Below, one piece after another: positions 3,291-51,360 of a stretch of DNA of 64,000 nucleotides. The stretch is from the NCBI RefSeq assembly GCF_900155365.1, contig NZ_LT699742.1:81729-145728 (forward strand). The letters are read 5' to 3'. A program made the position numbers and the translations under genes. Source of the DNA: Collinsella bouchesdurhonensis (GTDB taxonomy: Bacteria; Actinomycetota; Coriobacteriia; Coriobacteriales; Coriobacteriaceae). The notes below the pieces were generated by a model that was given only the letters and a program-made list of their open reading frames with translations, did not search any database and was not told where the DNA came from. The first letter of the stretch is position 1; each line of letters starts with the position of its first letter.

Positions 3291-3382
3291 CTCACGGGGT
3301 TCGATCCCGTGCACGGGTAACAAAAAAGCCGCAACCTCTCGGCTGCGGCCTTAATTTCAAATGGTGGAGGTTAGGGGGATCG
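3291..3382 (-). repeat. Direct repeat, distal copy: tRNA-Ala 3' end, terminator and tail
   Basis: These 92 bp repeat positions 3472-3563 with one mismatch (3318 versus 3499). In tRNA orientation the copy starts inside the tRNA-Ala T-loop, runs through the acceptor 3' strand and CCA, then the terminator hairpin (3322-3349) and a tail containing an inverted T-arm sequence. It is a 21-nt tRNA remnant plus a second terminator, not a tRNA gene. Confidence 0.95.
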
Positions 3383-3471
3383 CGCGCGGCGGGCCGCGCG
3401 GTGCGCTGCGGCGCGTGCGCGCCTTGCGTGCTGCGCTGGCGAACGCTTTCGCGTTCACTCAGCTCCGCACC
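3383..3471 (-). repeat. GC-rich hairpin core of tRNA-Ala-linked element
   Basis: This 89 bp core lies between the two direct repeats and has a clear relative at 51043-51137 behind tRNA-Lys. In tRNA orientation it shows GGAGCTGA, then an 8-bp hairpin with a GAAA tetraloop (3439-3458), then CAGCGCAGC, a second GGCGC/GCGCC hairpin, and a third CGCGCGG/CCGCGCG hairpin. No credible coding frame is present. The shared order of parts between the two loci indicates common descent of a structured element. Confidence 0.85.
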
Positions 3472-3563
3472 CTCACGGGGTTCGATCCCGTGCACGGGCA
3501 ACAAAAAAGCCGCAACCTCTCGGCTGCGGCCTTAATTTCAAATGGTGGAGGTTAGGGGGATCG
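3472..3563 (-). repeat. Direct repeat, proximal copy: tRNA-Ala 3' end, terminator and tail
   Basis: This is the copy that contains the 3' end of the intact tRNA-Ala gene. It holds the terminator at 3503-3530 and the tail with GGGGTTCGATCCC on the plus strand, which is the tRNA's own T-arm sequence in inverted orientation. Confidence 0.95.
3503..3530 (-). terminator. Terminator of tRNA-Ala
   Basis: On the minus strand GCCGCAGCC-GAGA-GGTTGCGGC is followed by six T. An identical second copy lies at 3322-3349 in the distal direct repeat. Confidence 0.9.
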
Positions 3564-3618
3564 AACCCCTGACCTCAGGCTTGCAAAGCCCGCGCTCTCC
3601 CAGCTGAGCTAAACCCCC
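3543..3618 (-). tRNA. tRNA-Ala(TGC)
   Basis: The 76-nt cloverleaf has acceptor GGGGGTT/AACCTCC, D-arm GCTCAGCTGGGAGAGC, anticodon TGC in loop TTTGCAA, T-arm with GGGGTTCGATCCCC, and an encoded CCA. It lies 66 bp downstream of tRNA-Ile. The Ile-Ala order is that found in many rRNA spacers, but no rRNA genes are present here. Confidence 0.97.
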
Positions 3619-36983: not shown

Positions 36984-37055
36984 GCGGGCATCGCCAAGTG
37001 GTAAGGCATCAGCTTCCCAAGCTGACACTCGCGGGTTCGAGTCCCGTTGCCCGCT
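36984..37055 (+). tRNA. tRNA-Gly(CCC)
   Basis: The 72-nt gene has acceptor GCGGGCA/TGCCCGC, anticodon CCC in loop TTCCCAA, and T-arm CGCGGGTTCGAGTCCCG. CCA is not encoded. Confidence 0.95.
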
Positions 37056-37070
37056 CCCATTCGAATTTCA

Positions 37071-37110: not shown

Positions 37111-37143
37111 GCCGAGACTCGAACCCGACAGGGTGCGAGCGCC
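37111..37143 (+). repeat. Shortened tRNA-linked element behind tRNA-Gly
   Basis: ACTCGAACCCGACAGGGTGC lines up with the tail and first bases of the core found behind tRNA-Ala and tRNA-Lys. Read on the minus strand it contains CGGGTTCGAGTC, the T-arm sequence of this tRNA-Gly. The hairpin core and the second terminator copy are missing. Confidence 0.6.
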
Positions 37144-37166
37144 TACAACGGCTGTTTTGTCGCGCC

Positions 37167-50896: not shown

Positions 50897-50969
50897 GGAC
50901 CGTTAGCTCAGCTGGCAGAGCAGGGGACTTTTAATCCCAAGGCCCAGGGTTCGAACCCCTGACGGTCCA
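50897..50969 (+). tRNA. tRNA-Lys(TTT)
   Basis: The 73-nt gene has acceptor GGACCGT/ACGGTCC, D-arm GCTCAGCTGGCAGAGC, anticodon TTT in loop CTTTTAA and T-arm CAGGGTTCGAACCCCTG. CCA is not encoded. TACAAT at 50882-50887 is a possible -10. Confidence 0.96.
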
Positions 50970-51042
50970 CCCTTTACAAGATAGAGCCCGGAGCACGCGC
51001 CCCGGGCTTTTTTGTTACCCGACCATGGGTTCGAACCCTGTT
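50953..51042 (+). repeat. Direct repeat, proximal copy: tRNA-Lys 3' end, terminator and tail
   Basis: These 90 bp match 51138-51227 with four mismatches. The copy begins in the T-loop of the intact tRNA-Lys, includes the terminator (50986-51013) and ends in a tail with GGGTTCGAACCC. Confidence 0.95.
50986..51013 (+). terminator. Terminator of tRNA-Lys
   Basis: GCCCGG and CCGGGC arms are followed by six T. A second copy lies at 51171-51198. Confidence 0.88.
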
Positions 51043-51137
51043 CAGGGGGCGGAGCTGAGGAAACGCGTGAGCGTTTTCCAGCGCAGCCCGCAAGGGCGCG
51101 CAGCGCCCGCAGCGAGTCGCGCGGCGCCGCCGCGCGG
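51043..51137 (+). repeat. GC-rich hairpin core of tRNA-Lys-linked element
   Basis: This 95-bp core matches the tRNA-Ala-linked core (3383-3471, opposite strand) in sequence and order: GGAGCTGA, an 8-bp hairpin with GTGA loop (51059-51078), CAGCGCAGC, a GGGCGC/GCGCCC hairpin and a CGCGCGGC/GCCGCGCG hairpin. Confidence 0.85.
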
Positions 51138-51227
51138 GAACCCCTGACGGTCCACCCTTTACAAGAAAAAGCCCGGAGCACGCGCCCCGGGCTTTTTTGT
51201 TGCCCGCCCATGGGTTCGAACCCTGTT
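51138..51227 (+). repeat. Direct repeat, distal copy: tRNA-Lys 3' end, terminator and tail
   Basis: The copy starts with a 17-base remnant of the tRNA-Lys T-arm and acceptor, then the second terminator (51171-51198) and tail. No core follows it; unrelated sequence begins at 51228. Confidence 0.95.
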
Positions 51228-51241
51228 GCCGTGTCCCTATT

Positions 51242-51312
51242 CCAAATGAAGCAAAAAATCCCATTTAAAGTGGTTCGTAGGCAATCTAAATGGGATTTTC
51301 TGCTTCATTTGG
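51242..51312. repeat. Long inverted repeat (26-bp arms)
   Basis: CCAAATGAAGC... and its complement form 26-bp arms with one mismatch around a 19-nt loop. It is AT-rich, unlike the adjacent core, and could be a miniature repeat element or a small structured RNA. Confidence 0.85.
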
Positions 51313-51360
51313 GATGACGGGGTGACGCCCCGGCATCGTCGGGTCGTCACCCCGTCATCC
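51312..51360. repeat. Second inverted repeat (16-bp perfect arms)
   Basis: GGATGACGGGGTGACG and CGTCACCCCGTCATCC are exact complements around a 17-nt loop. It abuts the previous inverted repeat. Confidence 0.88.

Follow-up and report, generated by a model that had tools for sequence, protein, structure and literature searches.

The window analysed here, a stretch of 64,000 nucleotides in the 1.88-Mb genome of Collinsella bouchesdurhonensis (G000:C14:81729-145728), contained a tRNA-Lys(TTT) gene on the forward strand (50897..50971; ARAGORN and Rfam RF00005), whose 3' half from N59 onwards is the block repeated behind it. On the same strand, the gene was followed by an intrinsic terminator read from the sequence as a GC hairpin with a T-run (50985..51015), an inverted T-arm copy termed I (I1, 51024..51040, core GGGTTCGAACCC at 51027-51038), a GC-rich hairpin element termed E (51039..51137), delimited by folds and covariation and matched by the covariance model R1 at 51027-51107 with 82.8 bits, and a block termed D (51138..51157, N59 at 51140), in which sequence comparison identified the 3' half of tRNA-Lys in direct orientation and with which I1 could pair. 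A second unit comprised a terminator, also read from the sequence (51170..51198), and a second inverted T-arm (I2, 51212..51223), with no E in the sequence 3' of I2. In the Rfam scan, the tRNA alone reached the gathering score.

Two other tRNA genes of the window possessed such tails. Behind tRNA-Ala(TGC) on the reverse strand (3543..3618; ARAGORN and RF00005) lay, on that strand, a terminator (3502..3531), I1 (GGGATCGAACCCC, 3477..3489), E (3383..3476, from folds; R1 match at 3411-3489, 87.6 bits), D (3362..3382) and I2 (3296..3308), the terminator and I2 being read from the sequence and I1 and D established by sequence comparison. Behind tRNA-Gly(CCC) on the forward strand (36984..37057; ARAGORN and RF00005), a single inverted T-arm (GAGACTCGAACCCG, 37114..37127, match 37116-37126) was present without D, followed by a possible remnant of the left end of E, read from the sequence (37128..37145). 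The initial annotation had proposed that the Ala, Lys and Gly tails each hold an inverted copy of the T-arm of their own tRNA, and all three tails were recovered. Against an expectation of 2.4, the window had 14 occurrences of the motif GGGTTCGA. The copy first put forward as an inverted example (51028-51042) gives no information on orientation, since the Lys core GGGTTCGAACCC reads the same on both strands (GGTTCGAACC is likewise palindromic); orientation was settled by the Ala and Gly copies and by a Leu-CAG copy outside the window (GGACTTGAACC).

A second inverted repeat, CCAAATGAAGCA..ATCCCATTTA with its mirror, was located 3' of the Lys tail (51238-51318). It was also found downstream of tRNA-Ala(GGC) (L029) and tRNA-Cys (L019), hence at three tRNAs of the same genome, and is perhaps a MITE-like hairpin favouring tRNA ends.

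The survey of the genome covered 29 stretches around tRNAs, in which ARAGORN detected 48 tRNAs and Rfam 47. An inverted cognate match with a score of at least 10 was present 52-65 bases downstream of 10 of the 48 tRNAs (Thr-CGT, Ser-CGA, Ala-TGC, Gly-CCC, Lys-TTT, Ser-TGA, Leu-CAG, Ala-GGC, Val-TAC and Glu-TTC). Rival tRNAs scored equally well or better in 15 cases for Thr-CGT and 12 for Ala-GGC, because the same T-loop is common to many tRNAs, and in at most one case for each of the other eight. An eleventh tail, matching tRNA-Ser(GCT), was located on another contig (L085 3500-4300, G000:C15:455866 region; L089), about 1 kb from a tyrosine integrase gene. It was probably displaced by a prophage and would represent the attR side, with the tRNA near the end of contig C14.

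Cognacy was further verified across genomes on tails picked by the universal core T[CT]GAACC, a selection blind to positions 59 onwards. The loci had been gathered through Lys-locus, element or model searches, and the sample is not an unbiased one. Of 90 tail matches, four lying within neighbouring tRNA genes were removed, leaving 86 tails of 21 tRNA species. The base of the own tRNA was present at position 59 in all 86 tails and at position 60 in 84, against an expectation of 0.55 at each for non-cognate tRNAs (87 of 90 were cognate at both positions when the four false tails were retained), as the initial annotation had held in arguing that more than the universal TTCRA motif is copied. The comparison with shuffled tRNA pairings that it had suggested gave the same answer: over positions 59-66, the mean number of matches was 5.94 for cognate and 4.42 for permuted tRNA species, and none of 5000 permutations reached the cognate value. 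Position 64 was cognate in 64 of 86 tails (0.33 expected), with a weak excess at positions 65 (34/86 vs 0.26) and 67 (35/86 vs 0.25) and none at 66. On the other side, position 51 was cognate in 94 of 97 tails (0.83 for non-cognate tRNAs), position 50 only weakly so (35/97 vs 0.24), and positions 49-46 carried no signal. At position 57, I was identical to the tRNA in 86 of 86 tails, a count free of preselection bias in which A57 was present in two Leu-CAG tails only. The inverted copy is a block of 12-14 bases centred on the T-loop, covering positions 51-62 and mostly 64 and fading beyond; it was longer at Ser-TGA and Ser-CGA. The existence of cognate inverted T-arm copies behind tRNAs is confirmed.

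Overall, the units followed the order tRNA, terminator, I, E, D, terminator, I, where D is a tandem direct copy of the 3' half of the same tRNA from N59 to CCA, placed behind E. The boundary of D lies in the T-loop: among 54 D copies, which include several genuine neighbouring tandem tRNA copies, 10 matched the tRNA at T55, 31 at C56, 42 at position 57 and 39 at 58, and the right end of E was directly 5' of N59 of D. Among 86 distinct I-E-D elements, which represented 17 tRNA species, D was identical to the tRNA in 83-86 elements at each of positions 59-68 but in only 5, 6, 38, 56 and 53 at positions 54 to 58. In the same set, I was identical to the tRNA in 85 or 86 elements at positions 54-62 and in 47, 60, 31 and 23 at positions 63-66; both I and D had been preselected by score against their own tRNA, and the I counts at 54-60 are biased accordingly. 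These position-wise matches indicate that I mirrors the T-arm core (51-62) and D the 3' half. The two copies overlap at 59-62, where they are complementary, and often or mostly at 64. The reading that I is cognate simply through its pairing with D is weakened by positions 54-58, at which I agrees with the tRNA while D is often different; at position 57, D departed in 25 of 72 cases while I retained the tRNA base. Gaps were near 100 bp between I and D and 80-90 bp between D and I, giving a unit period of about 160 to 190 bp, and the longest arrays reached four I copies (L144). R1 loci lay directly behind a tRNA in 28 of 30 cases (27 by script, L121 by position), and the remaining two (L101 and L108) were found at displaced tRNA-Glu 3' ends beside phage-like genes. 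A tRNA with a tail was present at 36 of 39 named loci, with no tRNA at L161, L174 and L192.

The initial annotation had offered two explanations for the inverted copy, namely that the tail pairs with the T-arm in a read-through transcript and spoils the tRNA fold, or that it is an inverted recombination site. The former is thermodynamically possible: T-arm:tail pairing was predicted for 67 of 90 cognate against 119 of 270 swapped combinations, in unmodified minimum-energy folds and with the four false tails among the 90. That I mirrors the whole T-arm core even where D departs also agrees with antisense pairing. However, the folding method was weak, as the native T-stem was kept in just 49 of the 90 tRNAs folded alone, a T-run of at least four T preceded the tail in 80 of 86 cases, complementarity fades past positions 62-64, I can pair with D instead, and D, E and the shortness of the block are left unexplained. 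An antisense function would thus appear improbable. The recombination-site alternative comes nearer to the data, as the inverted core of the T-arm is complete in I and keeps to the tRNA at positions where D departs, and the other boundary of the module lies in the T-loop.

Tyrosine integrases attach at the T-loop of tRNA genes and restore the tRNA 3' half. The Collinsella units share with such sites the T-loop boundary and the restored 3' half, but differ from them by being short, by having no integrase and by carrying an additional inverted T-arm. No integrase or other element genes were found between the direct repeats of the arrays examined, the exceptions being a TraX gene (4 of 43 genomes) and an insertion sequence at L077. 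The genome under study encoded two Xer-type and three phage-type integrases. It is conceivable from the T-loop boundary, and from the phage-like genes beside some arrays (L085, L101, L108 and L154), that the copies are attL/attR scars of prophage or ICE integration into tRNA genes. At these four loci, however, the phage-like genes lay between the tRNA and the array, and scars would not account for the recurrence, behind many tRNA species, of a similar short unit whose E is conserved and covaries. The element was absent from 50,697 phage records, one IMG/VR contig matched one exact pattern, no attP with I-E-D was seen in either collection, and the single 'plasmid' match was a Collinsella record of 899,693 bp. 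Integration scars thus have little probability as an explanation. At L154 (IMGVR_UViG_2921084881_000004), a phage-type reading frame ended in the 3' end of tRNA-Lys, its last residues resembling a serine recombinase by eye.

Concerning the fold of the elements, minimum-energy folds of 22 elements on the tRNA-sense strand paired I with D over at least four bases in 15 with RNA parameters and in 9 with DNA parameters, against 12 and 9, respectively, on the opposite strand. Three or four hairpin loops were present in 18 of the 22 RNA folds, and the sense strand was the more stable one in 16 (RNA) and 20 (DNA) of 22. According to these predictions, pairing of I with D can close the fold of an I-E-D single strand. 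Hairpin 1 of E, which is conserved across families, comprises 16 pairs with 96.9% of cells paired across 76 distinct sequences. It showed 98 two-sided changes against 19.7 after shuffling (0/500 as high) and paired in 23-60% when slid, although the alignment had been fitted to the covariance model, which favours the model. Its wobbles were 51 G.U against 7 A.C, or 17 against 7 once the single pair 42-70 is left out. This G.U bias points to the tRNA-sense strand, as RNA would; strand-biased C-to-T mutation could also cause it.

The structure of the arrays varied at tRNA-Lys-TTT, where 15 of 19 distinct arrays were built of the terminator types A, B and C. Differing modules occurred there in varied order at one site (A, A-A, A-B, A-C, B-C, C-C, A-A-B, A-TraX/C and B-TraX/C, as well as B-A in L154). 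The terminal Lys module kept I without E and was A, B or C depending on the array, a pattern which requires that I copies are exchanged as well or that homologous recombination contributes. The left end of E was CGTCGGGG six times and CGAAAGGG three times behind A, CGAAAGGG in three of three cases behind B, and one of each behind C. E thus appears loosely tied to the preceding module, and these mixed left ends behind A and C weaken the reading that E travels with its module. In the genome under study, the Thr-CGT and Leu-CAG tails (L006/L026) had a nearly identical unusual start of E, each with its own cognate I; the Leu-CAG E was masked beyond its start in this comparison with Thr-CGT. This shared start implies that E moves or converts between tRNAs. 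Furthermore, the presence of units at one tRNA differed between species, and the single-unit loci L056 and L057 had their chromosome junction in common with the double-unit loci L042 and L043.

One kind of Lys module carried a TraX gene (PF05857, E 8.7e-53) with a GC content of 0.42 against 0.58 upstream. It was present in 4 of 43 genomes, always at the tRNA-Lys locus, while a fifth genome had a distant homologue elsewhere. The start of this TraX-like gene of low GC content lies immediately 3' of D (L066 2586-3383 in G006; also in G004, G009 and G018), and its transcription may, judging from this position, begin at the promoter of the tRNA. Downstream of tRNA-Glu at L077 (G007), an IS3-like transposase gene, recognized by eye, was located within the terminator stem of the second unit; with the gene inside the terminator, L077 was rejected as a cargo module.

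The tyrT repeats of Escherichia coli were compared directly with the Collinsella modules. Behind tyrV, the tRNA-Tyr 3' half recurred at +161, +339 and +517, from N59 and each time after GAGTA, and an inverted copy (GGGGAAGGAT) preceded the hairpins and complemented D (ATCCTTCCCC); the outer helix of the Rfam RtT model (RF00391) is this I:D pairing. At proK, the succession terminator, I, E, D, terminator, I, as in Collinsella, was found in K-12, L212 and L216, and a single unit in L219. The number of RtT-like units at proK differed between E. coli strains, with one in L219 and two in L212, L215 and L216. The lys and arg operons had the same layout in a less exact form. Among 49 K-12 tRNAs in 13 selected stretches, a subset of the full tRNA set, 11 were followed by D from N59, preceded by GAGTA or GAGTC. 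Inverted copies matching 6 nt or more of the 3' half exactly were restricted to Tyr, Pro and argV, with none at Lys or the other Arg genes; the Lys copy had one mismatch by eye. The proK copy and one Tyr copy contained, by eye, GGATGAGAACCTCC / GGGTGAGAACCTTC near their inverted T-arms. A BLAST search with one RtT copy matched 4695 of 5426 E. coli genomes at a median of 3 places. The K-12 annotation carried no RtT feature at the proK, lys and arg operons, the Tyr locus being the sole one among the K-12 stretches examined, while the proK copy was labelled 'RtT sRNA' in two other E. coli records.

The Collinsella elements share with the 178-bp RtT repeats of E. coli tyrT (RF00391; rttR, tpr) the tandem direct copy from N59 to CCA, an inverted copy that could pair with D as an outer helix, and the GC-rich hairpins. 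They differ in the sequence of E, in their spread over 21 tRNA species in Coriobacteriia and in their usual position behind a T-run. At E<=0.01, the RtT covariance model matched none of 42 genomes from the genus, the E. coli control being positive; at E<=10, it matched nothing in the window between 50890 and 51300. The elements are therefore not RtT by the Rfam model and, from their sequence layout, are read as a variant of the RtT kind.

The E. coli data bear on the possibility that the units produce a structured tRNA-trailer RNA, in which read-through and processing would release an I-E-D RNA, comparable to RttR, acting as a small RNA or sponge, with repeats raising its dose. The Rfam RtT family, the rttR annotation of K-12 and its annotation of another tRNA-trailer RNA, 3'ETS-leuZ, support it, as do the covarying hairpin 1, the excess of G.U wobbles on the tRNA-sense strand (51 vs 7) and the closing helix, which RNA parameters gave in 15 of 22 elements and DNA parameters in 9. 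Against it stand the T-runs before I, the terminal Lys-array units that retain I without E, and the differences in unit presence between species at the same tRNA. Such a trailer RNA is possible but seems doubtful. The units may also be passive tandem repeats, BIME-like palindromes at the 3' ends of strongly transcribed genes that would provide extra terminators or affect DNA topology. Each unit does add a terminator, and one study reports rtT similarity for BIME-containing attenuator candidates (PMC2965389), in line with passive repeats. The cognate I, the T-loop boundary of D and the conservation of hairpin 1 across families are left unexplained by passive repeats, which we regard as an unlikely account.

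Within Coriobacteriia, the covariance model R1 matched 51 of 296 genomes from 9 of 125 genera, 46 of these genomes belonging to the same family and five to two other families. In a sample of the phylum it matched 8 of 296 genomes, all of the same family; the stricter filters of Infernal were applied in each of the two runs. R1 had no match in some congeneric relatives (G055 and G015). In named genomes, the element pattern was found at 39 loci, 38 in Collinsella and one in an 'uncultured Coriobacteriaceae'. The pattern GGTTCRAGTCC..GGACTYGAACC was present phylum-wide in 12 of 296 genomes, four of them outside Coriobacteriia, with 0 for the backward control among the matches listed. In other families of Actinomycetota, L200 (tRNA-Ala TGC) and L211 (tRNA-Met CAT) had a cognate inverted copy with no D detected, and ARAGORN found no tRNA at L201 and L202. 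No paper describing the Collinsella modules was found in the open-licence PMC literature, which is weak evidence of absence, as several queries were aimed at integrons or attachment sites.

The variable order of modules at tRNA-Lys recalls an integron cassette array, with one anchor site, reordered modules, inverted boxes around a hairpin and one gene-bearing module. Integron boxes follow the R box consensus, whereas the Collinsella box is, by eye, the T-loop motif TTCRANNCC. In addition, E appears not to be strictly bound to its module, and almost no cargo is present. The integron integrase model TIGR02249 had no match over the cut-off in 43 genomes; sub-threshold matches occurred in all 43, and those of the genome under study were of the Xer type. 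The IntegronFinder 2.0 study lists Actinobacteria as being without complete integrons (PMC9024848), and another study describes integrons as using the bottom strand of attC (PMC2727003), whereas the Collinsella wobble bias points to the tRNA-sense strand. With no IntI over the cut-off, another box and another strand, membership among integrons was rejected and the integron kept as an analogy. By this analogy, tRNA genes would be the entry sites of an integron-like system, with the T-loop acting as attI, the folded I-E-D as attC and a putative, perhaps Xer-type, recombinase inserting, removing and shuffling modules that carry a cognate 3' half; the tyrT, proK, lys and arg repeats of E. coli would be products of the same kind. 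Such a system would explain many features, but no IntI exceeded the cut-off and the link between module and site appears loose, and we consider it rather unlikely.

The explanation we favour, with confidence about evenly balanced, is an RtT-type, tRNA-anchored tandem module that is gained, lost and exchanged at T-arm blocks. It takes in the observed anatomy, the cognate rule, the D boundary in the T-loop, the conserved hairpin 1, the variation in copy number and order, and the same layout in E. coli. Modules would be gained, lost and exchanged by recombination, site-specific or homologous, at the T-arm blocks, and, since a cognate 3' half comes with every module, the tRNA would remain intact. 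Several results argue against a recombination module: folding gave the closing helix in no more than 15 of 22 elements under RNA parameters and 9 under DNA parameters, the terminal module can be A, B or C where simple insertion at the tRNA predicts otherwise, and gene-bearing modules amount to one, at one locus, in 4 of 43 genomes. Much of the shuffling could stem from slippage or from homologous recombination between copies of E. As to what maintains the RtT-type module, we place slightly less than even confidence in its being kept mainly by recombination, as a selfish or gene-carrying unit. That it is kept for an RNA made by read-through, as with RttR in E. coli, is a tentative option, and a role as terminator or in DNA topology has a low probability.

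The tyrT repeats of E. coli, so far an orphan curiosity, share their architecture with tails of 21 tRNA species in Coriobacteriia. A simple rule describes both parts taken from the host tRNA: its T-arm core is copied in inverted orientation and its 3' half, starting at N59, in direct orientation. Where tRNA-trailer repeats come from and what they do can now be tested in E. coli K-12, and the covariance model finds them in Coriobacteriaceae.
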